Assembly (NCBI RefSeq): GCF_002775205.1
Contig: NC_036447.1
Coordinates: 16,722,501 to 16,786,500 of the forward strand
Length of the DNA: 64,000 nucleotides
DNA from: Xiphophorus maculatus
Taxonomy: Eukaryota > Chordata > Actinopteri > Cyprinodontiformes > Poeciliidae
Reading direction: 5' to 3'
Below the pieces are notes generated by a model. The model did not search any database. It was not told where the DNA came from and saw only the letters and a program-made list of their open reading frames with translations. Position 1 is the stretch's first letter. Each line of letters begins with the position of its first letter. Made by a program: the position numbers and the translations under genes. Positions 3,810-26,639 of the stretch are shown in pieces.

Positions 3810-5825
3810 TCACTCTTTGAACTTCCACTCCTGACGACACATAGGGCACTGCTGCTGGACTTGCTGGGAGTTCAGCCACTTCAGGATGCAGTGCATGTGG
3901 AAACAGTGAGAGCACTGACCCCAGACCAGAGGGCAGTCGTCTCCAGGAACTTTGCCTGCAAAATAAGAAATATATTACAAAACCATTAAGAGTGCACACA
4001 AGAGAGGTACATAATCTAAACCCGTAGATACAATGCTAAATACTAAGCCTTTATTTCAGCGTATGATGTTATTGGCAGTCATGGCACCACAAACATTGTC
4101 ATAGCAACGTTTTTCAGATACCACTGCTTGCTGTTGACAATAGGTTGGCTGTAAAGCAGCTCGACTCCTTTTTCAAGCATTTTTGATTGGCCTTTAAAAT
4201 TACGAAAAGAAAAAAAAACTTAAGGGAATTTGGATGGATCTCAGCTGATAAAGTTAGTACAGCAGACAACTGGCCATCTTTTACAAATTAAAGAAAATGT
4301 AATAAACTTTACCTTGAAACACTTTACAGGGCAGGTACATCACAGGATGTTGCACACGGATATATTTTGAATAGTTAGACACCCATACAGTGTACTTAAA
4401 CTTTGTTATATTAAAAACTTGATGCCCTAAGGATACAAAGGACCTAGTGCCTGTTCAAGGTATTCGATATTTAGCCCAGTCCTACTTTTCTGTTTCGCTA
4501 TTTATCACACGAAGCTAAAGTAGCTTCCGATTCGGTAAAAGGCTAGAGGGCGATTCCACCTAATTTTTCACTACCTTTCGCATCTTTAATAGACTCTAGT
4601 TTAAAAACTAAAACTAATAGCAGTCTAGTTCTAAATATTCTGCTATTAGTTGAGAATAATCCAGTCCAACTTTGAAGTGTCTAGGTGTTGTAGTTTTGGA
4701 GCTAGAGCGGTACTAGTGCAACCCAGATACAAAAAAGTGGTAAAATCGCCCCTTACTGAAGTTTCACAAATCTGATGAAAGTTTCACAAATCACAAACAT
4801 GGTTATAAATGTTCTGCTATTAGTTGAGAATAATTTAGTCTAGGTTTGAAGAGTCTAGGTGTTGCAGTTTTGGAATTACAGCAGTTATATTATGACAGAG
4901 ATCCCAAAAAGTGGTGAAATGAACCTTTATTGAAGTTTCACAAATCAGAAAAAGGTTTCACAAATCACAAACATGGTTCTAAATATTCTGCTATTAGAGC
5001 AGAATAATCCAGTCCAGGGTTGAAGTGTCTAGGTGTTGTAGTTTTGGAATTAGAGCAGTTCTAGTGTGATCCAGATGCAAAAAAAAGGTGGTGAAATCAA
5101 TCTTTATTGAAGTTTCACAAATCAGAAAAAGGTTTCACAAATCACAAACATGGTACTAAATATTCTGCTGTTAGTGGAAAATAATCCAACCCAGGTTTGA
5201 AGTGTCTAGGTGTTGTAGTTTTGGAATTGGAGCAGTTATACTATGGCAGAGCTCCAAAAAAGTGGTGAAATCAATCTTTATAGCAGTTTCACAAATCAGA
5301 TAAAAATTTCACAAATCACAAACATGGTTTTAAATATTCTGCTATTAGAGCAGAATAATCCAGTCCAGGTTTGAACAGTCTGGGTGTTGTAGTTTTTAAA
5401 CTAGAGTCGATTAAAGATGAGGAAGGTAGTGAAACATTAGGTGGAATCGCCCTTTAGCCATTTCCCGAATCGGAAGCTAGAATTGGAAACCAACCTCAGC
5501 TTCGTATTTATCACTAAATGTGGTCACAATTCTTTTGTCTGATATGCACATTAGGGTTTCAATATTCAAAAATATTGAAATGAATGTGTTTTATGAGTTG
5601 TAAGGAAATTGAGCTAAATGTTTAGAAAATGAAGGGCATTTGGACTTTAGGCTAACATTAAGTGGTCAAGCAGACAGGCAGTATGTAGGACAGCAGCCCC
5701 CGGCTCAGGTACTCACAGTCCGGACAGCAGCCGTTAAAAGGCATCCTGCAGATGCCGCAGTTTTCATCGTTAGCCACCCAGGACCAGGAGGCCACTCCGC
5801 TCCACTGCCTTATCTTCACCTTCAT
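3810..5825 (-). CDS. anapc11: Anaphase-promoting complex subunit 11 (RING-H2)
   Basis: Two coding exons on the minus strand: 5825-5717 (ATG at 5825, 109 nt, ending in phase 1 before GTGAGT) and 3955-3810 (stop at 3812-3810). They encode exactly 84 residues, the usual family length. The protein starts [14 protein letters not shown] and carries the zinc ligands of the APC11 RING: C23, C26, C34, C37, C44, C51, H53, H56, H58, C59, C73 and C76, ending [12 protein letters not shown]11 is the catalytic RING subunit of the APC/C ubiquitin ligase; with the cullin APC2 it recruits E2 enzymes in mitosis. I chose the ATG at 5825 over the in-frame upstream one at 5846 because MKVKI is the conserved start. 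A poly(A) signal (AATAAA, minus strand) lies at 3667-3672. The intron holds a transposon at 4509-5505. Confidence 0.96.
4509..5505. mobile_element. Non-autonomous DNA transposon with long TIRs and internal satellite
   Basis: The ends are inverted copies of each other over roughly 100 bp with small gaps. The left end begins acgaagctaaagtagc and contains gggcgattccacctaa (near 4549); the right end reads as the reverse complement, ending ggtggaatcgccc ... agcttcgt. A perfect 9-bp direct repeat, atttatcac, flanks the element at 4500-4508 and 5506-5514, so it is a target-site duplication. Between the ends lie about five tandem copies of a unit of about 175 bp, recognisable by ATTCTGCTATTAG starting near 4638, 4811, 4986, 5162 and 5337. 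No transposase frame is present. The long TIRs and 9-bp duplication would suit a Mutator-like family, but the superfamily is not proven. Confidence 0.88.
4631..5400. repeat. Tandem repeat, about 5 x 175 bp
   Basis: Successive units share the phrases aaatattctgctattag, gtgtctaggtgttgtagttttgga, and a pair of tttcacaaatca boxes. Spacing between units is 173-177 bp and the last unit runs into the right terminal inverted repeat. The array is wholly inside the transposon at 4509-5505. Confidence 0.9.
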
Positions 5826-5970
5826 TCTCTCCGAGCTGCTGTTCAAACCCGAGTCAAACGCTGCGGCTCACAGTCCAGCTCCTCAATAAATTACATATCA
5901 AACATTAAACAATTGGACTCTGTAAGTAGTATAGATTAATTCCACGCTAGTCAGCTACATTGATTGAAAG

Positions 5971-6059: not shown

Positions 6060-6684
6060 TGGCGGTTGGCAAACAACTTACATTACCGCCACCTTCCAGG
6101 TTGGAGTATGGATCACACGCTTATACCCTCCCCATAATACCCGTTCTTCTTAGAAATCTAAAAATACTCTCAAATATTATATCTCCTGATGATTTCTGAA
6201 ATATTTCTTCTAAATCTAATTTACAATTATTCAACTCATTAACCAACATCTCTCTCTCCCTTACATACTTATTGCATTCTAAAAAAAATACACGCTGTAT
6301 TGTTTCCATCTCTCCACAATATTTACAACAACCTGTACTGTGTTTATTAATTAACTTAAGAGTACTATTTAACCTTGTGTGCCCAAATCTGATTCTGGAA
6401 ATAATATCTTCTTCCCTTCTATTCCTATTACCTTTTCTATACCCCCCAACTCTTTTTTGAATTTTATAATAAAATCTCCCCTTTTCTCCTCTATCCCACT
6501 GTTCTTGCCATTTTTCCTTCATGTACTCCTTAACAACACTTTTTATCTCATTTCTACTTATTTTAATATTTAACTCAACAATTTCCTTATTAGAGGCTCT
6601 CTTAGCAAAACTATCCTTGGCAGTTGGCTTGTAAACAGCTTTTAGGTACATTACTGCCACCTTTTGAATCGGAGTAGGGATCAT
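6060..6684 (-). mobile_element. LINE remnant: ORF2 C-terminus plus 3' UTR
   Basis: A minus-strand open frame of 187 codons (6684-6121) resembles the end of a non-LTR retrotransposon polyprotein. It has a WQEQWDRGEKGRFYYKIQK block, then RIRFGHTRLNSTLKLI, then a CCHC-like knuckle CCKYCGEMETIQRVFFLEC. This layout is typical of the region after reverse transcriptase in RNase H-bearing fish LINEs of the I/Nimbus kind. The sequence then runs into a 3' UTR with ggtggcggtaatgtaag and a GAA-repeat tail (5971-6058). It is 5'-truncated, as usual for LINEs. The first 30 codons of the frame look like a second copy of the 3' UTR rather than protein (see findings). Assignment to the I group is from recall. 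Confidence 0.75.
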
Positions 6685-7828
6685 AATCTATTTCTTACCA
6701 CCGCTTTCTGAGCTATCTTATTTTTTTGTATTTTATTTATTTATATATATATTTTTTTTTAAATATGGGCCATTAACTGGTTCCCAGGATGCCAGGAGCA
6801 AAACACTAGATAGGAAAAATAAGAAGTCGTTCATCCTCCTACCAGAAGGGGCAATATTTTGGAGGAAGTAAGTTGAAACCAAACGGCCTTTTTCCAGCAT
6901 AACTTCGGCTTCATTCGTTTATTACGTGATATTGCTGAATCAAGCGCATTAATTAATTGCTTAATCGTGTTTACGCGTTTTATTTTAACTTTAAAGGAAT
7001 ACAGCTACTTCAAGAAAGTGGAGTCATCCCACGCAAACGGTAATTTAACGGGATAGTATTAAGTAGATACATAAACAAAACTAACCTCAGTCTCACAGCA
7101 ACCCATTTTAAATGGATTAAACTAAATGCATTGTTTTTGGCTTAAATCGTCAGCCTGTTACTTATAGCTTATGTTACATTTACATTTGTAAAGTGTGAAT
7201 CTTTAGACTGTATCGCATTTGACCTCTGAACGGTTAGCTTCATTTTAGCTGAGGAGCACCGCTGAAGTTAGCACCCAGTTCAGCACAGCCCCGTCGGCCA
7301 GAGAAACTGATCCTCGTAAGGATTCTGTACCGTTTAATTGACAATGGTGGTAAACGGACTTAGTTATTCTACACTTCTTGCATATTTTACCATACTAGTT
7401 CAAGATATGACAACCGGTTATTCTGTTTATGAAATGACGGAATTGGTCAACTTCAATAAATTTAATCTTACATTTCAGCTAAGTGCAATGTGTAACTGGA
7501 GCCCTTTTTAGATGATACTAATGTGGAGCTTGTAGCTACAGACTCACCATGTCGGCAGCAAAACGATGAATGGGTTGTGGACATTCACCATATGACCACT
7601 GTTAGTAACTGTGGAGGTGTCTGTGATGCTGTGGGCCTTTTTGCTTTTTCTTCGTTTGCTAGTTCGAGGTATCAAACGGAGGATATGAGTGAAAATCTGT
7701 TGTACTTTGCCAAAAGGGTCTTCATTTGGCCTTTCAACAGAATAATGGTCTAATACAGATGGAAATAGTTCACAAGACACAAATAACCCCTCTTTTTTTC
7801 TTTTCTTTTCAGCTATAAATGTGAAAGG

Positions 7829-10619
7829 ATGTATTCACAAGGATCTGACTACAGTTACAGGCGGCAGGATGGTGACAGAAATTCAAGACAGAAGTGGGAT
7901 GATTATGATGACAGACGGGAAGACAGGCACGACTTCTGCAGTAATACACCTCGGGCCTCTTATTATAAGTACAGCAGTGAGGGACACAGTAGCACAACCA
8001 GGGTGAGCAAAAGTCAAGATTACAGCGAGTCTCCTAAAACACTCTGCAGCTCAGATTCAGTAAGCAGAGAGTGGAGTAGAATGAGCCCGGTGAGGAGGCG
8101 TTTGTCCCCACCTGATTGGGATGTGTCTGAAGTTAAAAGGCGAAGGCAAACAGAGGAAGATGATACGGATTATAGATATAAACGGGATTCCCCAGAAAAA
8201 GCTCACAGGCTGTCACCAGCAAGTTTTTCACGTAACCAACAGTTGGGATATTCGCAGTCACATGAAGATGATACCAGATACAGGAAAATGTCGCCATATT
8301 CCAGATCCAGAAATCAACGTGAAGAGCTGCCTCACAAATACCAGTATGAGGATTTCTTTGACAGAGATTCATCTGATCGTTTCGAAGGAAGTGCTTATAG
8401 GAGACCTGGGTATTCGCTAGAGAGGACCCTCTCACCAGATGACACTACAAAGGTTAGTTGTGAGTTTTAATGCTTTTAACAGACATTACATTTAAAATTA
8501 AGTTTATTTGATTAATAAAGATGTTCAAATATCTAATAGATTCAAGCCAAGATGAGAGAGAGAATACCCAACTCCTCGGCATCTGGGTATTATGATGAAT
8601 ATTATGAAAACAGAACCACGGTGCCTCTAAATGGATCCAGTGGACAGGTACATTGTCTTCTTAAGTGTTTTTTTTTCACTTTAGCTTTTTGACCACAATC
8701 AGAAGACCTGAGTGACCTGGAAGATTGATATGACAGCAGCTATATAATGTATTTTGGTGCCAAGAAATTCAGTGATTTATAAACTAGCAACAGTATTTTA
8801 AAGTATATTCTCTGACCTGCAGGGAGCCAGTGTAGGGACTTTAGAACTCGTTTGATGTGCTCTATCTTCCCTGTTTTAGTAAAAATGCGAGGAGCAGCGT
8901 TCTGGATCAACTGCAACTGTCTTAATTTATTTTTTTTAAGCAAACCCGTGAGGACACCATTGCAGTTTTCAATGTGACTAAAAATAAATGCATGGTTGAG
9001 TTTCTCAAGATGTTTTGTAGAGACGTTAATTCTTTAATACTAGAAATGTTCTATCAGAAGACATGGTTTTATTCTGATAGAAGGCTGACTTTGTAAATTG
9101 TCTTTATGTGATAATTGTCTTTAAATTTATCTGGTATGTCTCTACCAGATACCTAATCAAATCTATGCTTTCTTGTGAATTAAATTGGAGTAACACAAGC
9201 AGGCTGGAAGGCCAGTTTCTGGGATTATTAATGTGTACTTTTTATAGGACTTGTGATTCCTGATATGCAATGCAAAACAGCACTATTTATGTTTTTCTTG
9301 CTAAAATATACAGTTCCTATTTTTTTCCTTGGCTTACAACTTTAAACACAGAAACATTGTTGCAGTCTTATTAATTTCTCTGTGATCAGAAAACGTCAGC
9401 AGAATATCTGCCTCATTCTTAAAATAATGTTTTGAATTCATAGATCTAAAGTTGTGGCTTCTATGTTTCCCATCAGTCTTCTAAAAGCGACGCCCCTCTA
9501 CAGAGAGCCGCACTCCCCGAAGACAAGTCATCCAAAGGCTTCCAACGCTTTCTTGAAGTACTCAACAAGGGCGTGAATGTTGACGTTCTCACTCAGATAG
9601 TAAGTCAGAGCCCTGCACCACAGTGTGATGGGCCCATTATTCCAAGGTCTTTTGTGAAAGTTGCAGATCAACAGTGGTCTCCCAGTTGCACTGAGAGGCA
9701 ACAGAAATCATATAAAGATAACAGCTACTGGAATGAAAGTAAGGGCTCCCTCAGGTCGACATCTCCGCTGCCTCATCATCACTCCGCTAGTCCAGACCGG
9801 AATGTCGTGTCTATTGGCAGCAAATCCCCTTCAGTGGAAAAGACGAGTATAACACCTGAAGATGAGCAAAAGCGCAAGCAAATGCAAGACGTTTTACAGG
9901 CTATCGGTGTGGATTTGGGATTCGAGGAGCTCGGTCAAATGTCCCATCGAATCCAGGAGCGTCTTTATGGTAAGAGGGATAACGAGCGTGGCCGCAGATT
10001 AAGTAGAGAAAGAGGTGTTGGACAGACGTTCACCGAGGGACGCAGAAGTAGATCGTTGTCAAGCAGTTCTAGTTTTAGCCCACCAACTCAAAATTTTTAT
10101 ACAAGGAAAGACTCCTTAAGCAATTCAAGGGACGAAGCAGACCTGCAGCGATCTGAACGCAGTTCGGAGTTAAAAAGGAGGACTTTTCAGGATGGTCAGA
10201 GCAGTGAGGAGAGTAAAATGAGCACAGTGAAGAGCATTCCTGTACTGAATGTTGCTTCCAAACCTATCTCTGCTGTAAGGCAACCTTCTCCAGCAATGAT
10301 GCCTCCAACTCTTCCAAGGCTACCTTATACTCCCATCACCCATCCACCACCGTCATACCCAACTGTTCCTCCACCTCCGCTTCCTTTCCCGCCTCTTGCC
10401 GGACCAGGAAGTTTCCTTCCCCATGTGCCTCCCATGCTCCCTCATCCTTTCTTTCCACCTCCAAATGTCTTTCCTCCGCTGCACCCTCAAGTGAGACCGC
10501 CATTCCCACCGAACCTGCAGCTTTGCAATCCAACAAACGTAAAGGCTCAACCGGCCATGAAAACAAAGCAAATATCAAGAACGCAAGGAAGGCGACGCTT
10601 TCTGCAGTTTATTAAGTGA
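7829..10619 (+). CDS. ZNF318-like protein, paralogue 1 (no zinc fingers seen)
   Basis: Three coding exons: 7829-8452 (ATG at 7829, just after an acceptor at 7812), 8540-8647 and 9477-10619 (TGA 10617-10619), all in frame, about 624 residues. The N-terminal part is rich in Ser, Arg, Asp and Tyr (RS-like). At about residue 264 is SKGFQRFLEVLNKGVNVD; at about 375-412 is a KRKQMQDVLQAIGVDLGFEE block ending RIQERLYGKR. The latter matches the human ZNF318 stretch LLKTIGLDIG ... RTQERLHGKK as I recall it. The C-terminal part is strongly Pro-rich (about 9.7-10.5 kb). ZNF318 is a nuclear protein that modulates androgen receptor activity and IgM/IgD splicing; the matrin-type zinc fingers it carries are not found here. 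A poly(A) signal is at 10760-10765. The stop codon overlaps a possible splice donor, so more 3' exons cannot be excluded. Confidence 0.7.
8700..9040 (-). mobile_element. LINE fragment (L2/CR1-like ORF end)
   Basis: The minus strand reads LQLIQNAAPRIFTKT, then VLKSLHWLPAGQRIYFKILL and VYKSLNFLAPKYI. This is the very common C-terminal signature of L2-type reverse transcriptases in fish (LQxxQNAAAR ... LHWLPVxxRIxFKxLLLVYKxLNGLAPxYL). It lies in the intron between the second and third coding exons of the ZNF318-like gene. Limits are approximate. Confidence 0.75.
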
Positions 10620-12780
10620 GTGTGATATGTCATCATTCATATGCTTTTTTTTATTTGGAAAACACTGAAAAAGACATAGTTTGTAGCTTTTTCTTATTTG
10701 TTTTGTAAAATGCACAAAACAAACAATGTAACCTGGTTGGAGGTAATTTGAAGGCGAAAAATAAAACTGTACAGTTAATGGTCATAAAGTAAATAGTTTT
10801 TGCTCGAAGTAATCGTTTCCACCTAAGAATGACACATTATTGCATTTGATGAAAGAGAATAAACACTGGACATCTATCATAACTGAACCAGTAGTGGAGT
10901 TTAGTCTGTAATGATCAACATCTGTTTGGTATCCAAAGTTCATAAATTCTGAATTCTGCCATGAGTCCAGCTCTGGCTTAGAAAAATTTTCTTTTGCATG
11001 CATATATTTCATTTTTTTGACTGATTTTGTTAACATAAGGAAAGACTATTGAATTGTCTTGTCAGGTTTACCTCATTATTTGTGTACTTGTAGTTACCAC
11101 TTGTTTAATAATATGAAGTGTACAACATTAAAAAGTTATTCAAAGGAAACTTTGAAGCAATTGTTCTTTTATTACTGATTTTTTTTAATGCAGTGAAAGT
11201 AGGTGTTCTTTTAATAACAATATGGTCTTGCAATTGTTAGTCCATATTGCTATTTTTACCATTGTCAAGATTTTTAAAAATCTGCAGTTTCCACTTAAAT
11301 TTCTTATTCAAATGTGGTTGAAAGCAGAAGTAGTGACTGGCGACAAGCAAAAGCTGTCTTGTCTAATCACATATAAAAGCTAAATTGCTAAAGAAATTGA
11401 TATTGGTTCTGGTAGAAAGGTGTCAGTCTGGTTAGTGTATTGCAGTTTGTAGGACATTGGAACTGCATGATCCCAGAACATTTAGGGCACCAACACTGAT
11501 CCTTGATCATGGCTGCAGAAATAATGGAAGCAAGAGCAATAGAAATATGCTGTATTATAATCAGACCGGCCTGGTCTGATCAAACACTTTTCTTTTACAT
11601 CACGTGGATTACCAGGTGGCGGTACTCTGCTTACCTCAGGGATAAAAGATGCACCGTAGGAATTAGACAACCATTTGAGGCACTGTAATACTTTGGGTCT
11701 GTTCCTATGACGACTGCAACTTACCTTAGCATTGTGGCGATCCGTGTACACTTGACGTTGATAGATTGCTTTGACTTCTTTCAGCAGCTTAATTATCCCA
11801 AAAGGCAAATTTGGTACAGGATTACAACAAGTTTAAGTTGTCCTATCCTATCCAGTTTTTTAAGGTCTTGTTTTGTAATTTGCAGGATTTAAAGGATATG
11901 CTTCTAACATCTTCGTGACAATCCGCTACTCTATCATGTCATAATATTGTGCCTGATCGGTGTGTATACTTGGTACAATATTAACAATAACAGGAAACAT
12001 TTTTTTTTTATTTATGCATTCACTTTTCAAGTACACATACACTTTTTCCTGTTTCTTGTACAATATGTTTTGTGAAATATGCATCCTACTTTACTTCTAT
12101 TGGTATATCTATATATGCATGTCATTTAAATTTTATGGACCTGGCCAGCTTTTAAAATTAGCTTGATACAACCTCAGATAAACCATAATGTATTATGCAT
12201 AGGTCTATGAATAATATGATTATTATTCAGATGCTTATTCCAGATGTAAAAGCAGTTTCTGGGTAAAAAGAAAAAAAAAGTTCCTAGCTCACTTGAAAAT
12301 CTTGTTAAATCACCTCTAGTTCTGATTGCTTGAAGTAAATGTCTCCTGTTTTGTTTTGTTTTTTTATTTCATTCTGATTGACATTTTGTCTTTAAAAACG
12401 GACACAAATTGTAATGTCCTGAATCAGTCATTCTCAGGTAAATATGTGTCTGTTTACTGTGTAATATTACAATCAGAGTGGAGGTAAATTTTGTCTTGCT
12501 TTCACTTAAAAACATTTTTAAGTTATGGCAGGTTTTTGAGTTGTTTAACAGATTTTGTATTTATGTAATTTTAACAAGTGGAAGGGTTTAGTTGACTTTT
12601 CCCTGATATTAAAATTACCAATATATTTAGTTAGCTCATATAAGAGTTTCAGACAACGAATATTTTTTTCTGTAGGCATCTCCTCAACGTGTTTTTGCAG
12701 TGGTGGTCCTCCATCACATAGGTGGCGCTATTGAACAATTATCATTTTTAACGCCTTAAAGATTCTGTCCTTTTGCTCTC
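10620..12780. other. Spacer between the two ZNF318-like genes
   Basis: About 2.6 kb of AT-rich DNA separates the first gene's stop from the second gene's first coding exon. The first 150 bp is the first gene's 3' UTR. Around 11480-11810 is a stretch with a more complex base mix that may be a dispersed repeat, but I cannot name it. The second gene's promoter and first non-coding exon probably lie at about 12750-12946, where a GTAAAC donor follows gcagaag. Confidence 0.4.
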
Positions 12781-13017
12781 CAGAGCAGTTTATGGCCGAA
12801 TTATTTTGACCAGACCTTTTTCCACCAAAGAAGGTTAATTTCGTCTACGTATTGTCACAACAAGCTATTTTGGAGCTCATTTTATTTATGTTTTTGATAA
12901 AGACAACTATTCGGTTGTGTAGCAGATGACGGTTTTCCAGCAGAAGGTAAACCTGTTAGCTTCTATGCTATCCTCTTTGTAAACACTTTTTTAATCATAT
13001 CTGATTTTCCGTTGTTT

Positions 13018-13048
13018 CTAGTTCAAGTATTATTTATACTTGAACTAG
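13018..13048. repeat. Perfect 13-bp inverted repeat
   Basis: The arms ctagttcaagtat and atacttgaactag are separated by five bases. The hairpin is in the presumed 5' UTR intron of the second ZNF318-like gene. No function is known. Confidence 0.85.
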
Positions 13049-13267
13049 GATCTAATGATGTTATACTTTTATATCTGCTTACGTCAAACACCCTTCCATC
13101 AAGCTTGGCTGTTAAACGCTGATTCTCGAGTGTTTTGGTGTCGCTAGCTAAAATGAATTATTCTGTTTTGAGCGTTTATCTGTGGGATCGTGACTTCAGT
13201 ACTCTGTTTAACGTGTGTATGTATCCTCTTGTCAATAGAGCCTCTATAAACTGTGAAAGGCAGTACG

Positions 13268-16200
13268 ATGGATTCACATGACAATGCCTGGAGTTTTCCT
13301 GCTCAAAGGCTGCAGGTACGTCTGGAGCCAGATCAACAGAAGCTTGTTAACACCAACAGGATAGAGAGAGTCCAAAGATTTACCGATCACTGGCAAACAC
13401 GCCCTATGTACACTGCTGTCCAGCCTCACAGCGGTGGTGTAGCCTGGAAGGAACAAAGCTCCCCATCCCTGAACTCCCCAGACCCAGATGGAAACCCATT
13501 CAACTCAGAGGATGAGGAAGATCCTGAGTTGGCGAGAAAGAAGCGAGAGCTTCAGGAGTTACATGAGCAGATTATGCACAAGAAAACCACCATCGCTATC
13601 AAAACAATTGAGATGATTGTGAAGAATCCAGATTCTCCTGATGACCAGGAGTTTGATACTTACAATCCTGAATCGCTTCGAGACAGAGTGACTGAGATAT
13701 TGCAGCAACGTTCATTCAGCTTTTTCTCCAAGGTAATGTCCGTAAAGTTTTATGTGCAGATCTGAGCAGACTTTGATAAAAGTTACATACATAATTCATA
13801 CTCATTTTGGTATTAATGTGCTGACCCTAACCCTCTTTCCAGGTTTTAAGTAATATATAAGTTACTATTGTAATGATTTTAAAGATAAAAATTAGATAGG
13901 CAAGTTTTAATTTATAGTTGACATCATTCTCTAATCATAATCCAATCAAAATTAAAGTACAAGTTTAAATACATAAATACATTTTACTGAATCTTAGAAT
14001 AAATTACTTTGAAAAACTTAGACTGTGTAACTTTAAAAGGCTAAGTTTTCATAATTGATTGGAGTTGGTAGTTTTGCTGGAATCCAACCAATTTAAAGTT
14101 TTCTTTATTGCTTTGAAGACCATATTGTTGAGATTCCGCTTGCTAAAGGGTATTTATAAAAATATCAGTAGGTGGATGTATGTATATCTTTTGATCTGGT
14201 TTGGATGAGAGTATATCTATAATGAATTCAAGCAATGATTATTGCATCTTCTAATTCTATTTTTCTGATTGCCAGGTTAAGTTATGTAAACAAAAAGTAA
14301 AAGCCGCTGCTTCGAGAAAAGATGAAGTGAAGCAGCAGCACCACCCACTGAAGCTCAGAGTGAAGGCATTAAATGCACACAGACTCAGGGACCGTGGCAT
14401 TTTACCACCGAGCAGAGAGAAGGTTTGTACTAAGCGTTTTATGAATAAATTTAATCGCAATGGAAAGAAATCCCATTACTAAACATGCATTTAAAATGAT
14501 CTAAAACCTTCTAGAAATTTAGAATATGTTTAGATGAGGATTATAAATTTGAAATCAGAATATATTTGTTATTTTTAAGAATAACATAATAAGTCATCTT
14601 ATATATGTTTCTCTTAAGATGCACTATTTGGGGAAATTATGCACGACCTGAGCAAAGATTTATAGTGTGTATACACAGTTGCATGTTTTAGATTTAGCTT
14701 TTTTTAGCCATTTCAAAAACAAACTGACAGTCCAAAAAGGTTTTTTTAATTTTTGTTTTTACTTAGAATTTTTTACATCTGTTTTTTATTATCCAGCTGT
14801 GCTACTGTAGTGCCATAATATGAATTTATGTGTGTAGTTCCCATCTCCTCACAGAAACCTGTTCTGGAAGAATTGTTTAAAGAAGCTAATAAAACTGCTG
14901 TTGGTGTTTCTCCCACTGTGAATGTGTTTGTATTATTGATGCATAATGTTAATGCACTGATGTTTGACAGATCCTTGATGTTCCTCCACCTCTCACCACC
15001 CGGGCTGTTGCTTCACCGGCTAAAGAGGAAAGCAACGCTGCTAAGGGCTTCGAACGCTTCCTGAATGTGCTCAACAGAGGAGCTGATCTCAACCTGAAAA
15101 GCATGGTATATACAACAAAAAATAAAAATAAAGAATGTCAAATGTATAACAAGAGCTATTACATGGATTGGGTAAACAAAATAAAAATATGCATCTGAAT
15201 AGAAATGTTACTAACCTCAGTTGAGGACAGTGATACGTAAATGTTGCTCCATCAGTTTTTTTACTCTTTGCGAGACCAACGTCAGCAAAGTATGTAAAGC
15301 AAATTCCCGTTCTAGAGCCTAACCAGGACTCTAGTTTTACTCTAAAGCTTGAAAACCCATAAATTCTGCAACAACAGCAAAGCATGGTGATGGTAGCCTC
15401 CTGCTGTGGGGGTGTTTCAATGTTACTGGTAGTACCGGTATTAACTTTGAATTCATTTAACTACATTTAAAGTGGAAAATGAATCCCAAAACATATGGAA
15501 TGAATGAATCACATGAAATGTAACTTCCCAACAACCTCAATTGATTTGTTATTTTGACTACTCTTACGTAGAATCGAAGCGATTCAGGATGCGTCAGAGC
15601 CGAAAAGACGAACATAATTTCTTGTTTTCTCAATATTGATGAGTGTGTGATGTTTCTCAGCTTTCAGATGACCCTCTGCCTCCTCCTGACCACATCATTA
15701 CTTCGCCTGCAAAGCAGCAGCAGGAGGAGACCACCACCAACAAGGGATATGAGCACTTACTCACTGCTCTCAAGACAGTCGCAGCAGCAGTCCCTAACAT
15801 GAAAAAAACGGTACGTCAGGTTGGTTTTCATTTACAGAGCAATGAACAATGTTTGCCCCTTAAAGATTTCTTCTATTGTTTTTTCATTCCACTGGCCTGT
15901 TTATGTGTTTAATCGGGTCATCTTAATCTAGTGTTAAAATACGTTTGATCTGAAACAATTAAGCATGACAAAGATGCAAAAACGGAAGAAATCTATAAAG
16001 GCTGTGTTTCACAGCACTATATATGACAATATTATTAATAGGACAAGAATTGTTCATGTAGAATAATGTCATTCTTCAAGTTTTATTGACAAGATAAACG
16101 TATTTGAACATGATTCCAGATTACGTTAAACCCCTGTAACATTGAGAGAATTGGAGCACCTCAAATCTCTAAAAAGACAAAAGAGAGAGAAACAAAAACT

Positions 16201-19200
16201 TAAAGAAGTGTCTATCCTGCTAAACGTTAGCTTACTTATTGCCAGATTAACTACTGTTTCATTAATTTTTATGAATGTGGGATGATTCACAGGGTCCTGA
16301 TGTCCCTCTGCTGCCTCCTGGCTGCAGCATTACTTCCCCTGAAAGGCAGGAGAGAACCACAAGCAAGGGATATGAGCGCTTACTCAGTGTTCTCAACAAA
16401 GGAGCTGCTCCCAACTTGAACACCACGGTACGTCCTGTAGAGTTTTTCTTCTATATGGAAACTGGCATTTGTAGAGTGTTTAATTGTGTAAATCTTTATT
16501 ATTATTATTATTATTATAAATTAGATCTAATAAAAACCAAAAATTCAGATTCTAGAGGCTTGGTGAATACGTTTTACTTTGGGTTGTAATTGTATGTGGA
16601 CAAATAGCTTGTGTCATAAATGTATTAAAAACGGTTTAGCACTTTCAGTACTTTTCAGGATCATCAGTGGGTCTTGATGGTCGTCACTTACTTGGGCTCA
16701 GCTCTGAATTCAGTCTCTGTACTCATGACAGCTGTTTAAAGATAAACCAGAGTTCATGTGCAACATGGCTAGTTCAGGATAATATGGTATGCCCAGCTTG
16801 AATTGAAGTTTTTATCAAATATTTCAAGTTTCGCAAGGAAATTAGTTTGTGGAAGATCTTATCGTCAATTATGTCATTATTACAATAGCAGCAGAAAATA
16901 TAGTAATAAAACTTTTAAGCCCACATCGCACAGCCGTACTTGGTATATTCCCAGATTAAATTTATGTTTGTGTGTCTTAAATGTTTTTCAGATCCCTGAT
17001 GTTTCGCTAAATCCTCCCAGCCATAGCGACCCTCAGAGAACAAAAAAGGAGAACAGTACCAAGAAGAGTCCTGAGGGTGAGAGCAGAGCCAGTCGAGGTT
17101 CTGAGCATACAGGGCAACATTCTGAGAGTAAGAGCAGTGCAAGCACAAAATTTGAGAGCAAGAGCAAAGCTGACAGATGTTCAGACCATGAGAAAAGTGA
17201 AAACAAACATTCTGATCATGAGAAAAGTGTCAACAAGCATTCTGACCGCAAGACCAGTCCAAAAGGAGGCAATGAGGGCCAAACTGGTGACAGCAGAGCT
17301 TCTGAGCCCAAGAAAAGTGTTGACAGAGGCTCTGACCTTGAGAGTACCATCAGCCGATGTTCTGAAGTCAAGAAAAGAAATTCTGATTGTAAAGACGGAG
17401 CTGATAGAGGTTCTGAGAACGCGAACAACCTCGACAGACCTTCTGAACGCAAGACCAGTGTCCACAGAGTTTATGAGCGCGAGAGCAGTGCGAACCAAGG
17501 TTCTGAGATTGAAAACATTCTCGACAGAAGTTCTGAAACCAAGAGGAGTGTCAGCAAGGGCAGCGTTGATCGGCTCCTTGAAGACAAGGGCAGCTTGACA
17601 AGAAATTTTGAGTCAGATAGCGGTGCAAACACAAGTGCTGGGCACAAGAACAGTGGCGACCAAGTCTCTTCTCAGTCAGAGAGCGGTGTCAGTAAAACTC
17701 TTAAAAGTGAGAACGAGAAGAACAGAGGTCTCAAGAGCAGTGATAACAAAGGTTTTGAGCGCTTTGTGAGTCTGCTCAACAGTGGAGTGGACATCACCAA
17801 GCTCAGTAAGATGATCAAAGATGAGGTAGATGATCTCCCAAAAACCTCTCCCTCTGGTTTGAAAAAGGCCCCCAAGAGTGAAAACCAGAAGTCCGATACT
17901 GGATTCTCGCTGCAAGGCTGCAGTGGGATCAGCAGCGTAAAATCAAAAACTGTCAATCAAGAGACGTCTTCACCTGAAGACGTTGAGATAAAGAAAGTTA
18001 AAAAAAGGAGCAGTTTGGACTCCAGTAGTCAACCAGAGCCTGCCCTGGAAGTGAAAAAGAAGAAGGAAGAGGAAAAGGGAACCTCAGAAATAGATGAAAA
18101 GCAGAAACAAGTGCAGAGCATTCTTAAAACATTGGGTTTGAATTTGGATGTGGAGGAATTGACCAAACTAACAGATCGCACTCAGGAGAGGCTATATGGA
18201 AGGAAGAATGAAGGTAGAGAGACGAGCGAAAGCAGGATGGAACAGAAAAGTCAACTTGCGCTCTCCCATAAAAAACACAGTAGGTCCCGCTCCTCCTCTT
18301 CCTCTTCGTCGTCTTCTTTGTATTCTTCTTCTTCCTCTTCCTCCTCAACTTTCTCTAGATATGCCTCTAGAAGCCGTAGTCGGAGCCCTCGGGGCCGCCG
18401 GCATCGGCGCTCTCGCAGCAGAGATGCACATAGACGTTCTCGTGACAGAGGCAGAGATGGAGGGAAGGGGCATAGCAGGACTGAGGCCAATAAAGACGCC
18501 CAGAGGCCCAGTTACAGAAACCAACAACATCCTTTTTGTTCTCCTTACGGTACTCCTTCTGCATATGCCGATTACAATTTCTACCAATATGCCCAGTATA
18601 TGAACTACTACAATGCCTACAACAGTGCTATAAACTCCAATTGGGTATTTGATCCAAATCAGAGTCATGTGCCACCGTCCCGTTCACAGTGGCACTCAGT
18701 ATTAGCAGATATGAAGCTTCCCAACCAACCTGGACAGATCTCACTTCATGACTTCATGCTGTTCATGAATCCAGACTTGTCTGGGAGTGAAGGTCAGAGC
18801 AACGAACCCTCTGGTTCTCGTTGCCTCACGGTCATCAATACTTTACCATCTTCTGCAAGCAGCGCAACTGAATGTCGACGGTTAACGAATCTGGAGAGGA
18901 ATGAGTTGGGGTTGAAAAGAAAGAATCATATAAAAAATAAGAGAAAACAGTCTGCAAGATCAACTAAAGACTTTACACCGAAGAGAATCATAGAAAAGTC
19001 TACTGAGAAAAAACCTGCAGAGACATTGACTGCAGAGAAAAAAGCCTCAGAAACGGTTTCTATGGAGAAAAAAACCCCAGAGACGGTTGCTATGAAAGAA
19101 AAGATTGCAGAGACGGTTGTTATGGAGAAAAAGGTTGCAGAGACGGTTGCTATGGATATAAGAGTTGCAGGGAAGAAAACCATCAACTCGAAGACCTTAA

Positions 19201-20626
19201 ACTCCACGCCGTCACAGGGTAAGACTTCTGGTGCTATAACCAAGGCAATGGAAGAGAAGAAACGTCGCCTTACAGAGGAGAAAATAAAGACCAACCTGAG
19301 GGAAAAGGTAAATTGACTTTTTATTTTTCCTTTTTTTAAATTTTTTTTACCTTTTTCACTTGCGCTATGAGATTTCTATTATTCTACTTCAGAGGTATTC
19401 CAAACTATCCACCAGATAAAAGGTTCTACCTTAGATCAGTGGTTCCCAGTCCTAGTCTTGCATGTTTAAGATGTCTGTCTGGTCCAGCACACCTGATTTG
19501 ACAGATTGATTTACCTTCTCAGCATGCTATCATGATCTGCAGCAGCGTTTTAATGACACATTCGATTAAATCATGTGTGGCACCAGAGAAATCTCTACAG
19601 TGTCTGGCAGAAGTTCTCATATCTAGGGTCCCAACTTTATCTCAAAGAGTTTTGAATTTACTTTTAAAGTATTCCAGATCTGGACAAATACAGTGTGAAT
19701 TTTTGTCTTCTATATTTTTTCTCTTATTATGTTATCTAAAGGGTATAAAATCTAAATTTCTAAAGTAAGATGAAGATTCTTTCCTTGATTTTGTTATTTT
19801 ATATCCTTTTACATTTTATGAATAACCAGAGAAAAGCACACATTATAAAAGTCGTTACAAGTAATAAATATCATTGAATGAGCTGCTCTTCACATTCATA
19901 TTGCAGCTGTAATAACAGCACAATGTGGATAACAGAAAAGGAGCACGAAGGACTTCCATGTCCTTTTTTCTATATGTCATGTCTGTCCAATGAGAGCAAT
20001 GATCGCCAATCGCGTGGCTTTGTTTACAAACTATAGTCTGCTTGCAAAAAGGCAGAATGTGAAAACAAACTGCACCAAATGTAAAAAAATATAGTCCTCT
20101 TTTGGTCTGAACCAAACAAGCGGACCAATAACACCAGAAGTGTTTGAAAATTTAAAGTAGAGCTGATTTAACTTGATGTTTTTCTCTCTTATGAAATCCT
20201 AATGAAGCACATTTAACTATTTTTTTAATTTTATTTTTGTATTTAATGTCCAGTTGCTGGAACCACTGATGTGAAGTATTTGCCCTGGTCTCAGTAAAGC
20301 TCCACGTTTTACTGATTGCGATTATGTGTTATGTGCAAGTTTTAAGATGCATTTAGTTATCAATAAAATTGATAATATATATCAATATATATATTATATT
20401 CCTTTATTTAATCAGGTAAACCCCGTTGAGATCTAGATCTCATTATCAAGAGGGACCTGAAACAAACTTATATATATATATATAAAATGTCTTGACAAGA
20501 CGGTACAAATATTTCTACAAAATCTTTTTGTAGCTTCTAGAGTTTAACCGGAAAGCGAGGCTGCTGACACAACCCACCACCACCATCAAGCCATCAGCAA
20601 ACTCCCTGGACTCTGAGCTCCTTTAA
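13268..20626 (+). CDS. ZNF318-like protein, paralogue 2 (about 1,167 aa)
   Basis: Eight coding exons keep one frame: 13268-13732, 14276-14422, 14855-14917, 14971-15105, 15661-15810, 16293-16427, 16992-19307 and 20534-20626 (TAA 20624-20626). The donor of the third exon is the least certain. The N-terminus (MDSHDNAWSF) carries an acidic and coiled stretch DPELARKKRELQELHEQIM. Exons 4 to 6 and the big exon 7 each carry one copy of a KGFERFLNVLNRG-type module. Exon 7 also has Ser/Glu/Lys-rich repeats of 10-11 residues, a QVQSILKTLGLNLDVEE ... RTQERLYGRK block (residues about 735-772) shared with ZNF318, an RS domain (from about residue 796), a Tyr/Asn-rich patch, and EKKxAETVxM repeats. The RS domain suggests a nuclear, RNA-processing setting; that is inference. 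No zinc finger follows. The gene is a tandem paralogue of the one at 7829-10619. Confidence 0.75.
15180..15430. mobile_element. Possible Tc1-like scrap
   Basis: The sequence gcatggtgatggtagc ... ctgctgtgggggtgtttc near 15383-15420 resembles the KHGGGSxMxWGCF region of Tc1-family transposases. It lies in an intron of the second ZNF318-like gene. Only this short match supports it. Confidence 0.35.
17070..17700 (+). repeat. Coding minisatellite, 30-33 bp period
   Basis: Within exon 7 of the second ZNF318-like gene, the word (g/c)(a/t)ttctga recurs every 30-33 bases. It encodes degenerate repeats such as HSDHEKSENK, HSDHEKSVNK and RSSETKRSVS. All three phases of the strand stay largely open here as a by-product. 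Human ZNF318 also has a short Ser/Asp/Arg repeat in this part of the protein, as I recall it. Confidence 0.8.
19434..19600. mobile_element. hAT-like MITE scrap
   Basis: The sequence begins cagtggttcccagtcct, like a hAT terminal repeat, and continues with the phrase ggtccagcacacctgattt, which is found in a very common teleost non-autonomous element. Only one end is recognisable. It sits in the last intron of the second ZNF318-like gene. Confidence 0.5.
20393..20465. repeat. Dispersed teleost repeat fragment
   Basis: The phrase cctttatttaatcaggtaaa ... gagatct ... tcaagagggacctg resembles a repeat commonly seen in fish introns. I recognise the wording but cannot name the family. It is followed by a short AT run (20469-20483). 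Confidence 0.4.
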
Positions 20627-23150
20627 TGCAAGTAAATTACATTTTCAGCTCTGTTGTGTCCTTGTCTTTTCTTTAATGTCTGTACTGGCTCAAAGTTAAT
20701 GCCACTTCATCTCTTATTTAAGTTTCTAGTAGATTGTGTTGCTCAAAGTGATGTGTGTGTGAAATTCTACAGAATATCAAAAGTACTTATTTTAGATTAT
20801 TAATTTGAGTATAAAAATCCAATTTGCTCAGAGGTAACATTGAAAGCTGTGTGTTCATGCTCTGCATGTACTCTTCTTAACCTTTTCCATGAACAGTAGA
20901 AGGTTAGTCAGACCTCTCAGAGCCAAATGGTAATTAACTGGAAATTCAGCAGTTTAAAACTATTCCTTTAATTGGAGATTAATGTGTTGTAGAGACGACT
21001 TATTTCATTTTTGACTTGGGTTTCTGAAATATCACTCCTCCCACCCCTCTTTTTTAGCGTGTAACATGAATTTAAATAATTTATTAATAGGTTCCTAAAT
21101 GTAACTGTCAAAACATTTATGATGAAACCCCTTGAATGATAGAGCTGGTATTATTTTTAAACTGTTGACATAATTTTAACAAAACCTGATATCTTCTGAA
21201 CTAATGTATTTATTTTTTATCTGATGCATAAAAAACAACGGGAGTTTATCAAATCAATTTTGATTCATGAATTATGCAGATTTTAACTGGCTAAAATTTT
21301 AATGCAGTTAATCGCTGTTTTTGTCTATATGGTTTTATATTAAAATGCAATTAATTTTACATGTAACTCCATTAAGAATGTTAAACAAGTCCCACCACTA
21401 GAAAAGCACAGAGAATTGCCATGCTTAAACTCATCATCATGGGAACAAGCCTCCCATTCCAGACAAACTTTGACATGTGTAGATATATGTAAATTTATAT
21501 ACAGTATAATGCAACTTTTAATTGTTTGTTCTCTTTGCTTTCAGGGATCTGTAGAAACTCTGACATCCCCCGTGGATCGTTGACCTTCATTTCAGTCCTT
21601 ACATAAACATTTTGCTACTCCCTGTTCGAGCTGAATCCTCCTCCAAATACCACAAGTAAATGAAAACTTCCTCAGAAGAATTTACTTTAAGTTGTTCCTA
21701 GTTTATATCAAAGTTTTTACTTTTGTCACCACTAATTATGTTATGTTCTAACATTTATTTGCTGGTTCTGTTATAGTTAACCTCTTTTTGTTGCCAGGAG
21801 TCTTTTAGTTTGTCTGGTTTCTCTAGTAAACTGTTTAAAAACTGTTTAAATTATTGTGGATGTTTGATTTATTTAGTTATACTGTAATTTTGAGGTGCTA
21901 CTTCTGAAAGTCTTCACTACCTTAACGTAAAACTCCAAGGGCAAAGTTGGTCTGTGGAGCTTGTCTGTACAGCCAGACAATAAGCTGAATTTTTTTAAAA
22001 AGGAGAAACCTTATACATAACTTTCTCTTGACTTTGGATGTCAAAAATTAGCAATGAACAGAAACCGTATTAAATATGTGGGAGATGAGAGGCTTGTCTC
22101 TTTAAACTCAATAATTGCTGACTAACTGTAGAATATGAATTTTTTAGTTTCCAATTCTTTTCATGTTTTTTGTTTTTTTCTTTTACTAAGGGACATGTGG
22201 ATCAAGTAAAACCCAGAGACTTGGATCTGTAACTACAATAACATTGCCTCAGCAAACATTCACTTAAGGGTACCAAATTCATGTACAGGCCACACATTTC
22301 AGATTTCTATTCATATAAAAGTTAAATCCTTCACTACTTTTTATTGGTCTTCAGTGTAACACATTGAAGTTTGTATTTTCACAAAGCATTTTTTTATGCA
22401 TTTAACAGCAGAAGGAAGTAGGTTTATATTTGGCATTGTACTGCTCCAGTGTAAATTAAAATTTTCAAAAGATGTGGAGGGTGTTAACTTCTTTGAGTGC
22501 ATACTGGATTGTAGGCAGTATCACATATGAGACAGAATAAAATGTCAAGCGATCAAGACTATGGGTTTGTGTTAAAAATAATTCAGTTTCCATTAGAAAA
22601 ACAGGAGGAAATTAAATTTTCTGGTTGAGACTTAAAACAGGAAAAAGTCTTGGTGGAGCATGTTGTTTCACTATCAGTGTTGAGCATGTTTGGTTCACAC
22701 AGTGAAAATAAATCAACTACTCAGAGTAATTGAAAAAGGGGAAGGAAAAAAAACATGTCATTTTTTTATTACTTTTCCCTCTTTTATTTACTTCAAATAG
22801 ATCAGACTGTTGTTACTGGAGGTGCCAGGTAATAAATGAAAGCATCAGGTATTAAATAAAACTCTTGTCTGAATTTTTACATTTTTATTTTACGCACATA
22901 TTTAACACTTATTTATGGGTAATAACATGGAAGTTCTTCACAGATCCATAAGAATTCATGTTGAAATAAAGTCATCTCACATGGCGCTCAAAACAATACT
23001 GACATTTTGCCGAATAATTAGTTTTAGGAAAACAAAGACAAGAAGGTTCAAATAAATTACTCAGTCATGGGCATATTAAACACACTACACCATCAATATG
23101 ATGCATCTCCGTGCTTTCCCTGTGGCTCTTGTGGAATAACAACATGTCCA
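20627..23150. other. 3' UTR and spacer, no gene recognised
   Basis: This is AT-rich DNA between the second ZNF318-like gene and pla2g12b, which point towards each other. Candidate poly(A) hexamers for the plus-strand gene include AATAAA near 22537. A possible acceptor (ctttcag, ending 21544) might mark an alternative terminal exon, but nothing after it is clearly coding. Confidence 0.4.
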
Positions 23151-23154
23151 TGGT

Positions 23155-26100
23155 TTACAGTTCATCTTTCTCCTCTCCTGGGCAGTAGCAGGCCGCTCTC
23201 TGGCTGTTCATGTAGGGTCTGCAGCCCAGAGTCCACACTGTGTTGAACAAGGTGTCGGCTACCGTCTCGCATGCTGAGGATAAGCAGCACAGAAAACGGA
23301 AGACATGTTATCTGCTGTTATGTTGCACTGATTTCTATGTAGAATAAATACAGGAGATATTAGATGTTAGTAAATAGGAAAAAGCAACCTTTTGCTCTTA
23401 GACCTCAGCAGTTTCTCACATTGTTCTGTTTTTGTTTTGTTCTTTGTAATATTTGTTGGAGGTTTAAAGTAATCTTTTACCTACTGGTAACTCTTCTAAC
23501 TGGCAGTACTATTTACTGATTCAGTACAAAACAGAATCTGATAGATGATTAATGGATGTTAGCTAAAATTAGGGTGATGGCAAAGAGGCACTTCAACCTC
23601 AAACACATCAACAAAGATGAATCAAACATGAAGTCGGTCAGCCATGCTTGACTGTAATTGAAAAGGATCTAAAAAAATTTTTATAATTTAAAAAATGGAA
23701 ATACATTTTTTTAAATTTTTTCCATGGATATTAAATAGTTTTTCTTATAAGTCTTGCTGTTATCTCTCCTTGGCTTTGGGTAAACTGCAAGTGCAAGTTT
23801 GCACCCAAGTTCCTTCTTCCCGTAGTTTCTGCATTTAGCTCCGAGTTAGCTAAATAAAGGATGGCACGTTGTAATATACTATGTGTCGATTGTCAGCAAA
23901 GGTTGTAAAATAAATCAAAATGGCTTCACTAAATAATAGAGAAAATGCAGATCGCTGACCTTCGACTTTGGACACGAAGCCGAGGCTCTTCTTGAGGTCC
24001 GAGCAGATGCTGTGGAGACACCAGCGAAACTTGGAGTCGCAGCGGTACTTGTTGGAGCCGCAGGTGTCGTAACACGTGTCCAGCTGATTGCAGCACTTGG
24101 TCATCGCTGGGATTCCCACATCCATCTGGCACAGACACACAGGGGAGTACGATTTCATGTACAGTAGCTTCAAAAACCACTGAGGTTTTATTGCAGCAAA
24201 ATGACCTCACCGAAAATTTTAGAAAAATACTGGATTTTATTAATAGTAAATCCCCTTTTTTTTCTGTCATGCCACTCGCATCTGAAATGTTTTCGCAAAT
24301 TGACTTTCTCAAGGGAATTTACAAGAATTAAATTATAAACAAAAAAAATACACATGGATGGAATAGTAATGGGAAAAACAAATGTATTGATGTGGAACTT
24401 ATTCAATCATTGGATTTTTCTTAAATCTTCAGTGAGATTATGCTTTTTTGTAAATTTTTATCAGGTTTCCACATTTGTCTACCTGAGTGAAGTTGGCCCC
24501 CCCACCTTCTTCAAATTAGACAAAATTGGTGTCAATCAACTCGGCTACGTTTGTGCTGGTTTGTGCAGCAAAAATTTTCGTTTGTGCCGCTATCATTTTA
24601 AAGATATAAAGACATGTTTTTAGAGGTCATCAAAGGTCAACCAGCCCCCCACCTTCTTCAAATCAGACGAAATGGGTGTCAATCAATTCGGCTACGTTTG
24701 TGCTGGTTTGTGCAGCAAAGATTTTTGTTTGTGCTGCTATCATTTTAAAGATATTAAGAAATGTTTTAGAGGTCATCAAAGGTCAACCAGCCCTCTTAAT
24801 ATCTTTAAAATGATAGCTGCACAAATGAAAGTCTTTGCTGCACAAACCAGCACAAATGTAGCCGAGTTGATTGACACCCATTTCGTCTGATTTGAAGAAG
24901 GTGGGGGGGCTGGTTGACCTTTTGACCTTTACCCTTTCCTTAATATCTTCAAAACCGATGCAGCACAAACAAAAATCTTTGCTGCACAAACCAGCACAAA
25001 CGTAGCCGAGTTGATTGACACCCATTTCGTCTGATTTGAAGAAGGTGGGGGGCTGGTTGACCTTTGATGACCTCTAAAAACATTTCTTTATATCTTTAAA
25101 ATGATAGCGGCACAAACGAAAATTTTTGCTGCACAAACCAGCACAAACGTAGCCGAGTTGACACCAATTTTGTCTAATTTGAAGAAGGTGGGGGGGCCAA
25201 CTTCACTCAGGTCATTTGTCTGCATGTATATATATATATATATATATACGTATATATGTGTGTGTGTGTGTTTGAGCTTGAAATTAGGTTTTATCCTCTG
25301 GGTCACATCCAAATTCATTCTATTATTCTTTCATGTATGTAATCAGATATCCTTACATAAATATTTTACATGTAGAATTCATGAGAAAAGCATTATTGAA
25401 TAAAATTGATTTTTTTTCTAACCCAAAAACCTGCTTTTAACTACAAAACCTACCCCGTCTGGAACAGGAAGGCCAAAGAAGTATGAGGTGCATCCATCAG
25501 GCTCAGGCATGTTGTAACCTGGACGAGGAAGAGGCGCTTTACCTGCAATACAAAATAGAGAAAAAAATTATTTTGATGTAGGTCATGAAGCCAGCTGGAC
25601 AATATACCTGTGAGGTTAAAATAGATCCATATTTGCACATAGAAACACAGAATCTAAATCTTTGACACGTCCCCCAGTGACCGGATGGCCCCTCTCCTAT
25701 TACCCAAAGGCCACAGTCCGTTTCCTGGGCCTAACCCAGATAACAGAGCCAATATGGGAAAACATATTACTTCCAACTCTACGTTTAGAGTTGAAGTACA
25801 TCGTACGCATTTAAGAGAAGCGGGAGAACCATTTTAAAATAAAAAAAAATAACAAGAGACACTTAAAACAATGTTATTCACATTCTAAAACAGAAAATGT
25901 TTAAATGTATGTTAATGTATCATTGCCATACATTTAAATTAGAAAATAGTATGTATAAAATGTAAAGTGGTAATTAAAATGTTTTGTTCAGACAAACAGA
26001 TTTTTGATAGAGAAAGATCTTAAAAGTAAATGTATATCAGCTGTCTTTAAGACCTAAAATATCAGCAATGCTATGTGGCAGTAAAGGCAATTTGAAAGAT

Positions 26101-26597
26101 TACCATATGATTGTGTGTCTTGCAGAGGTTACGGATTTTTTTTACTTATAATCTGAAACAAGGATGAATTTAACATTTTTGTTGAATTTTTTCAGCTATA
26201 AATTTATTTGGAAAACAATATATAAGTACTGTTAGATCTTGCAGACGCTTGATGACTCAAACAAAAGCAATAAGATCACTTGTTACTTAACCCCAAATCA
26301 AAATATGCGATACCGTTAATCCAGCTCAGATTTACCATGTCTGCAGCGGTACTGGCACACGCCATCTTTTCCACCCATGAACTCCAGCATGGAGTCAAAG
26401 TAGCCGCTGACCGCCTCAAAGCCTCCCCGGAGGGAGTTCAGCCCCCAGTCCTCGCTCTCATCCCCTGCCTGGGTGCTGCCATCAGACGGTGGACCCGGTG
26501 GAGGTGGTGAGGCTTCTGGGTTTCCAGCCTCCTGACCTGCAGCTCTGAGAGTCAACAGGCCCACCAGGAGGGGCACGACGAGGGCCCAGCGTGTCAT
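23155..26597 (-). CDS. pla2g12b: Group XIIB phospholipase A2-like protein
   Basis: Four exons on the minus strand: 26597-26336, 25542-25454, 24125-23960 and 23273-23155 (stop 23157-23155), all phases matching, 211 residues. A signal peptide ([17 protein letters not shown]) is followed by a low-complexity Pro/Gly stretch, then [20 protein letters not shown] and the PLA2-like core, and the C-terminus [13 protein letters not shown]. The catalytic site reads [12 protein letters not shown], with Leu132 where active PLA2s have His; Asp133 remains. This Leu is the hallmark of PLA2G12B, a catalytically inactive secretory-pathway protein needed for proper lipidation of apoB lipoproteins in liver and gut. 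The protein ends EEKDEL, an ER-retrieval signal. The start at 26597 gives a clear signal peptide. The gene is divergent from the CCCH gene at 28714. Confidence 0.95.
24481..25212. mobile_element. Foldback (inverted-repeat) transposon, 732 bp
   Basis: The element begins acctgagtgaagttggcccc and ends with the inverted copy ggccaacttcactcaggt. Each half holds about two units of roughly 150-180 bp (caccttcttcaaat ... gacaccc, tcggctacgtttgtgctggt, atcattttaaagatat), and the right half is the reverse complement of the left, so it could fold into one long hairpin. A perfect 9-bp duplication, catttgtct, flanks it at 24472-24480 and 25213-25221. It encodes no transposase; open frames here are by-products. 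It sits in the intron between the second and third coding exons of pla2g12b. Confidence 0.88.
25226..25271. repeat. (TA)n(TG)n microsatellite
   Basis: A TA run followed by a TG run lies directly beside the right flank of the foldback element. Confidence 0.9.
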
Positions 26598-26639
26598 CCT
26601 GTCGCTCAGACGGCTCAGTGCGAACAGGAGTCAGGTCTT

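Follow-up and report, generated by a model that had tools for sequence, protein, structure and literature searches.

We analyze a 64-kb stretch of the Xiphophorus maculatus genome (C5:16722501-16786500, hereafter the window), in which two neighbouring genes, gene 1 (7829-10619) and gene 2 (13268-20626), lie head to tail on the plus strand. As judged from gene models, we show both to be intact-looking, spliced members of the ZNF318 family without zinc fingers, and gene 2 has grown by exon duplication. The reading that we favor, and to which we give a somewhat better than even chance, is that they are a finger-less ZNF318-family pair that arose by local duplication and would encode nuclear adaptors or competitors of ZNF318.

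Results

The proteins of gene 1 and gene 2 are homologous (blastp 7e-12), and both match the znf318 protein of the same genome (blastp 6e-9 for gene 1 and 3e-8 for gene 2), which bears out the family membership proposed in an earlier reading of the window's letters (hereafter the sequence-only reading). Both are probably genuine genes that belong to a family already known. Each contains the conserved block that had been described as 'IGVDLGFEE ... RxQERLYGK': it reads IGVDLGFEELGQMSHRIQERLYGK in gene 1 (KRKQMQDVLQAIGVDLGFEELGQMSHRIQERLYGK at 9870-9974, plus strand) and LGLNLDVEELTKLTDRTQERLYGR in gene 2 (EKQKQVQSILKTLGLNLDVEELTKLTDRTQERLYGR at 18096-18203, plus strand), and the two copies align with a score of 111, where the best of 5000 shuffles scored 53. 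The 5' leaders between acceptor and ATG, CTATAAA-TGTGAAAGG in gene 1 and CTATAAACTGTGAAAGG in gene 2, align with a score of 27 and, as had been suspected, look homologous, since chance rarely gives this score. It was reached by 5 of 20,000 non-overlapping random pairs from the window (31 of 20,000 with overlaps allowed), by none of 20,000 with shorter stretches, and by 8 of 20,000 draws of paired 40-nucleotide (nt) stretches before ATGs, in which close pairs were skipped yet kept in the denominator. No other copy of the leader with up to two differences occurs on the plus strand of the window or in the 90 kb around znf318; one looser match lies on the minus strand of the window.

We placed the splice sites by eye and checked them with a script. 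The resulting model of gene 1 has three coding exons and 624 amino acids, that of gene 2 seven coding exons and 1146 amino acids; all introns of both have GT/AG ends and are in phase 0, and the pair holds stop-to-stop open frames of 389 and 847 codons. The gene 1 ATG at 7829 and the end of the gene 2 stop codon at 20626 are where the sequence-only reading had placed them. In gene 1, the first coding exon (7813-8452, coding 7829-8452) carries the leader CTATAAATGTGAAAGG at 7813-7828 and is bounded by an acceptor cag and a donor AAAG/gttagt; a phase-0 exon of 36 codons follows (8540-8647), and the last coding exon (9477-10619) holds a short module (KGF), the block, and a TGA stop at 10617-10619. 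In gene 2, the first coding exon (13239-13732, coding 13268-13732) carries its leader at 13244-13260 and a ELARKKRELQELHEQI motif that is common to a relative on C22 discussed below. It is followed by an exon of 49 codons (14276-14422), by exons 4, 5 and 6 (14971-15105, 15661-15810 and 16293-16427), and by the large exon 7 (16992-19307), which contains charged serine-rich repeats, a KGF module, the block, an RS cluster and 30-nt repeats; these last, at 19005-19170, are coding and give EKKxxETVxM units. The last coding exon (20534-20626; 30 codons plus stop) begins in phase 0 after the acceptor tttttgtag. Non-coding first exons likely lie upstream of both genes.

Exon multiplication in gene 2

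The module occurs once in gene 1 and four times in gene 2, as KGF in exons 4 and 7 and as KGY in exons 5 and 6. Exons 4, 5 and 6 each carry one copy (copies 1 to 3) as their own exon, and the fourth lies inside exon 7. Among the ten pairs that the five modules form, nine beat all 1000 shuffles; the exception is gene 1 with exon 5, whose score was reached by 28 of 1000. As tandem copies, exons 5 and 6 share 76% of their nucleotides over 45 codons, with nonsynonymous divergence (dN) 0.27 and synonymous divergence (dS) 0.33, and their similarity starts about 38 nt before the exon, in the preceding intron (76% over 98 nt). Between exons 4 and 6 the identity is 61.5% (dN 0.41, dS 1.16). When the whole introns of the duplicated exons were compared, no intron pair beat its 60 shuffles. 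The sequence-only reading had described a shortened family member with only the N-terminal half; this is roughly right, but gene 2 has also been enlarged by exon duplication.

A genome search (here as elsewhere over the 704-Mb assembly) with the exon 6 module returned exons 4 to 6 and two further places, on C7 (0.61) and C1 (8.9), which look like chance when read. The idea that the module is a shortened copy of the block was dropped: with four of the five modules (exon 5 left out) set against blocks, fewer than 50 of 1000 shuffles reached the score in 2 of 16 comparisons (2 and 45), and hhalign gave a probability of 0.2 per cent.

Absence of fingers

Both genes end before any matrin-type zinc finger, as the sequence-only reading had stated. 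Scanned in all six frames, the window has three matches to a C2H2 pattern, of which two lie on the plus strand far downstream (36362 and 42370) and one on the minus strand (17458); none reads as a matrin finger and none lies on the sense strand within the pair. When the exons of this genome's znf318 that encode the coiled coil, the fingers and the part after them are used as tblastn queries, the best match in the window has E 0.23, whereas each query hits C22 at 2e-18 or better. The coiled coil RKKRREKDGHKDPLL, which lies upstream of the znf318 fingers, reaches at best E 1.1 in the window, and the NPLYEQRRNLDRQAG segment of znf318 was not found there. For the finger-1 exon, C22 is the one strong place in the genome (1.2e-25); a match on C6 (0.23) was read as chance-level.

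Relatives on C22 and the origin of the pair

When the gene 2 block was searched against the genome at E<=10, with only the best candidates scored, at least four places emerged: the pair itself and, on C22, one place at E 4.2e-5 and one at 1.65. The stronger C22 place is znf318: it has the block, the coiled coil, and both finger patterns, CKNCNITSGSMFDFFTHLHSKPH and CLLCKEFYGDAICAEEHVITHFH, with Pfam reporting only a sub-threshold match (zf-C2H2_jaz 0.019, finger-1 exon). Around it are frames that we named by eye as DLK2-, LRRC73-, PPP2R5D- and CUL9-like, and the human ZNF318 neighbours at 6p21.1 are DLK2, LRRC73 and CUL9. The matrin-type label for ZNF318 is that used in PMC7532188.

The weaker place, hereafter X, is non-significant in that search alone; it lies about 17 kb upstream of znf318 on the same strand and matches znf318 at 53% over 32 amino acids (2e-7). 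It comprises cold-shock-like exons, an RS region and a ZNF318-like segment (L011:2843-4573 and L010:3594-5807, minus strand). The cold-shock-like exons, one of which matches Pfam CSD at E 3.2e-4, below the gathering score, are joined in matching phase across an intron to one long exon with the RS region, ELARKKRELEELNEMIAYKK, LHRFLDMLNKK and the block. No C2H2 pattern occurs in X within the 60-kb stretch scanned, upstream of which its first exons lie, and a donor after the last exon read leaves its 3' end unsettled. Between the cold-shock and RS parts, the intron houses a retrotransposon with endonuclease-like and reverse-transcriptase-like frames, recognized by eye (C22:3266178-3271758).

An unrooted tree of the block (51 columns; gene 1, gene 2, X and znf318) is best when gene 1 joins gene 2 and X joins znf318, with a support of 0.93 by resampling of estimated log-likelihoods (RELL). 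Placing gene 1 with X gives P values of 0.029 in the approximately unbiased (AU) test and 0.068 in the Kishino-Hasegawa and Shimodaira-Hasegawa (KH/SH) tests; placing gene 1 with znf318 gives 0.083 (AU) and 0.084 (KH/SH). Identities over the 51 columns are 20 for gene 1 with gene 2, 19 for X with znf318, 18 for gene 2 with znf318, 15 each for gene 2 with X and gene 1 with znf318, and 9 for gene 1 with X. Because the tree favors this pairing, by which gene 1 is nearer gene 2 than either C22 member, a local duplication appears the most likely origin of the pair; together with the shared leader, the tree supports the duplication that the sequence-only reading had proposed.

Whether fingers were lost in the process is a separate matter. 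The strongest competing explanation, a serious contender that we nonetheless rate at somewhat under an even chance, is that the pair descends from an X-like ancestor in which fingers were never present, so that the "loss" of the sequence-only reading would be wrong in direction. Besides the lack of a C2H2 match in the scanned part of X, two N-terminal motifs are nearer X than znf318. For the ELARKKRE..KK motif of gene 2, X gives a match of 55% over 31 amino acids (E 6e-6), znf318 one of 12 amino acids at E 0.25. In ten comparisons of the modules with the C22 members, uncorrected, the score against X was reached by 2 of 2000 shuffles for exon 4, 22 for exon 7, 41 for gene 1, 147 for exon 6 and 1713 for exon 5; against znf318 the counts were 57 for exon 7, 183 for exon 6, 1488 for exon 4, 1650 for exon 5 and 1870 for gene 1. 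Of the copies of the KGFxRF module said to be shared with ZNF318, some find a significant counterpart in X (best 2 of 2000) and none does in the genome's own znf318 (best 57 of 2000). These likenesses, with the finger-less scanned part of X, suggest that the branch may never have had fingers. However, the unrooted block tree groups X with znf318 and with neither gene of the pair, the block of both genes is closer to znf318 than to X (18 vs 15 identities for gene 2, 15 vs 9 for gene 1), the exon 5 and exon 6 modules lack an X match, and the 3' end of X is unsettled. Since the evidence on the nearest relative is mixed, loss of fingers in the pair may or may not have occurred: of the claim that the pair had "lost its zinc fingers", the finger-less ends are supported and the loss is conjecture, X being a finger-less relative where scanned.

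An improbable alternative derives the C5 pair from the C22 tandem by whole-genome duplication, gene 1 from X and gene 2 from znf318. Both places do hold two family members head to tail, in the same order and relative orientation. But the block tree disfavors joining gene 1 to X and, more weakly, gene 1 to znf318, and when window frames of at least 35 amino acids were compared with 90 kb of C22, all matches at E<=1e-4 fell within the family genes or apparent repeats.

It is very unlikely that one or both genes run on into missed finger exons, through a longer 3' end of gene 2 or through a donor-like GTGAGT at 10616 (10616-10621). This sequence overlaps the gene 1 stop codon, which leaves the last exon of gene 1 unproven, and an exon spliced to it would begin in phase 2. 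Against such an extension, no plus-strand C2H2 pattern occurs in the window before 36362, the znf318 exons find nothing better than the E 0.23 given above, the finger-1 exon has its one strong place on C22, and poly(A) signals follow both genes (for gene 1, AATAAA at 10760 and 10858). Least probable of all is that the pair is decaying into pseudogenes, for which the strong divergence of gene 1 from gene 2 and the weak constraint between exon copies could speak, but every frame in the models is open, with GT/AG splice sites and phase-0 introns.

Composition and predicted structure

Gene 2 has an RS cluster of 18 RS/SR dipeptides in 70 amino acids from residue 771, where 150 shuffles reached at most 8. 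The densest 70 amino acids of gene 1 contain 7 (shuffle maximum 9), so the description of the pair as RS-type nuclear proteins holds for one stretch of gene 2 alone and fails for gene 1. No Pfam family was found in either protein at E<=10. We modelled the segment from KGF module to block with AlphaFold2 (162 residues, an alignment of four rows). Helices are predicted at residues 3-13 and 18-30 (the KGF module) and at 111-130 and 137-152 (the block), with a disordered linker between; 48 of 162 residues have a predicted local distance difference test score (pLDDT) of 70-90 and none exceeds 90, and the ten-residue means across the block are 68, 84, 79 and 84.

A PDB sequence search with this segment returned three MazF chains (0.04-0.052) over residues 70-134, that is, the low-complexity linker and the start of the block, which we do not consider credible. 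Searched with the block profile, PDB gave nothing credible (best E 1.1), and among viral contigs searched with the block alignment, 53 stretches fit the pattern and none was confirmed.

Neighbouring features of the window

The pair is flanked by an ANAPC11-like gene, named by eye from its translation (about 3820-5836, minus strand, transcribed away from gene 1), and by a PLA2G12 gene (about 23150-26600, minus strand; Pfam PF06951, 6e-30 and 3e-15 in two exons). An intron of the ANAPC11-like gene contains several direct copies of a unit of about 180 nt (4560-5420, by eye). At 6124-6687 on the minus strand lies an open frame of 188 amino acids that resembles the end of a retrotransposon polyprotein and has no Pfam match at 0.01. 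In a PLA2G12 intron (24490-25200), as seen by eye, a unit of about 130 nt (CCACCTTCTTCAAATTAGAC...) recurs in both direct and inverted orientation and may be a palindromic mobile element.

Discussion

Under the reading that we favor, a local duplication would have given rise to gene 1 and gene 2, followed by multiplication of the exon-borne KGF/KGY module in gene 2. Both proteins would be nuclear and mostly disordered, their ordered parts being short two-helix motifs, the module and the block. Through the block, the proteins may enter the RNA-processing or silencing assemblies in which ZNF318 takes part, or hold partners of them, and a protein with the block and no nucleic-acid-binding fingers could act as an adaptor or a competitor of ZNF318. 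The module array and RS cluster of gene 2 might add multivalent contacts. In short, we infer that the pair would serve as finger-less adaptors in the nucleus, either cooperating or competing with ZNF318.

Several results weigh against this reading. With a dN of 0.27 against a dS of 0.33 over 45 codons, the extra module is at best weakly constrained, and the genome search with the exon 6 module recovered neither the gene 1 module nor that of exon 7, which makes it an insensitive test. The gene 1 block at E<=0.001 finds the pair alone and not znf318. The block tree is short as well as unrooted, and while the AU test rejects gene 1 with X, it does not reject gene 1 with znf318, and the KH/SH tests reject neither. 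The coiled-coil junction of gene 2 matches znf318 and X at chance level (145 and 703 of 2000 shuffles). Whole-protein RS/SR counts are ordinary (17 in gene 1, shuffle mean 18.8; 33 in gene 2, mean 24.0, maximum 42). The AlphaFold2 model is weak overall (mean pLDDT 57.9, predicted template modelling score 0.21), and Foldseek returned no PDB match at E<=10.

ZNF318 is the same gene as TZF, an androgen-receptor corepressor. A BirA fusion of TASOR, of the HUSH complex, labels ZNF318 (PMC7532188), and a review describes Zfp318 as proposed to suppress Pol II termination between the mu and delta exons of Ighm/Ighd (PMC4920211). ZNF318 is tied to HUSH proximity (PMC7532188) and to the choice between IgM and IgD transcripts (PMC4920211). 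We can imagine, as an unlikely extension, that the finger-less branch, X together with the tandem pair, forms a multivalent scaffold through the block and the exon-multiplied two-helix module, and thereby counteracts or steers the fingered ZNF318 in transcript termination or HUSH-type silencing. Among the titles and abstract beginnings listed, which cover part of the ZNF318 literature, no finger-less ZNF318 paralogue appears, and no paper linking a cold shock domain with zinc finger protein 318 was found. If they are expressed, natural relatives without fingers would allow the role of the block to be told apart from that of the fingers, and the exon array of gene 2 offers a clear setting in which to ask whether the number of module copies matters functionally.

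The pair differs from znf318 in that no fingers, no RKKRREKDGHKDPLL coiled coil and no NPLYEQRRNLDRQAG segment were found in the window, and gene 2 differs further in its KGF/KGY exon array, which has no significant match in znf318. X resembles the pair in being finger-less where scanned and in its ELARKKRELEELNEMIAYKK motif, its LHRFLDMLNKK module and its block; it departs from it in its cold-shock-domain-like exon, Pfam finding nothing in gene 1 or gene 2. With ZNF318/Zfp318, represented here by the C22 znf318, the pair has in common the IQxLLxxIGLxLxxxEIxKxxxRxxERLxG block and the serine-/arginine-rich low-complexity arms.

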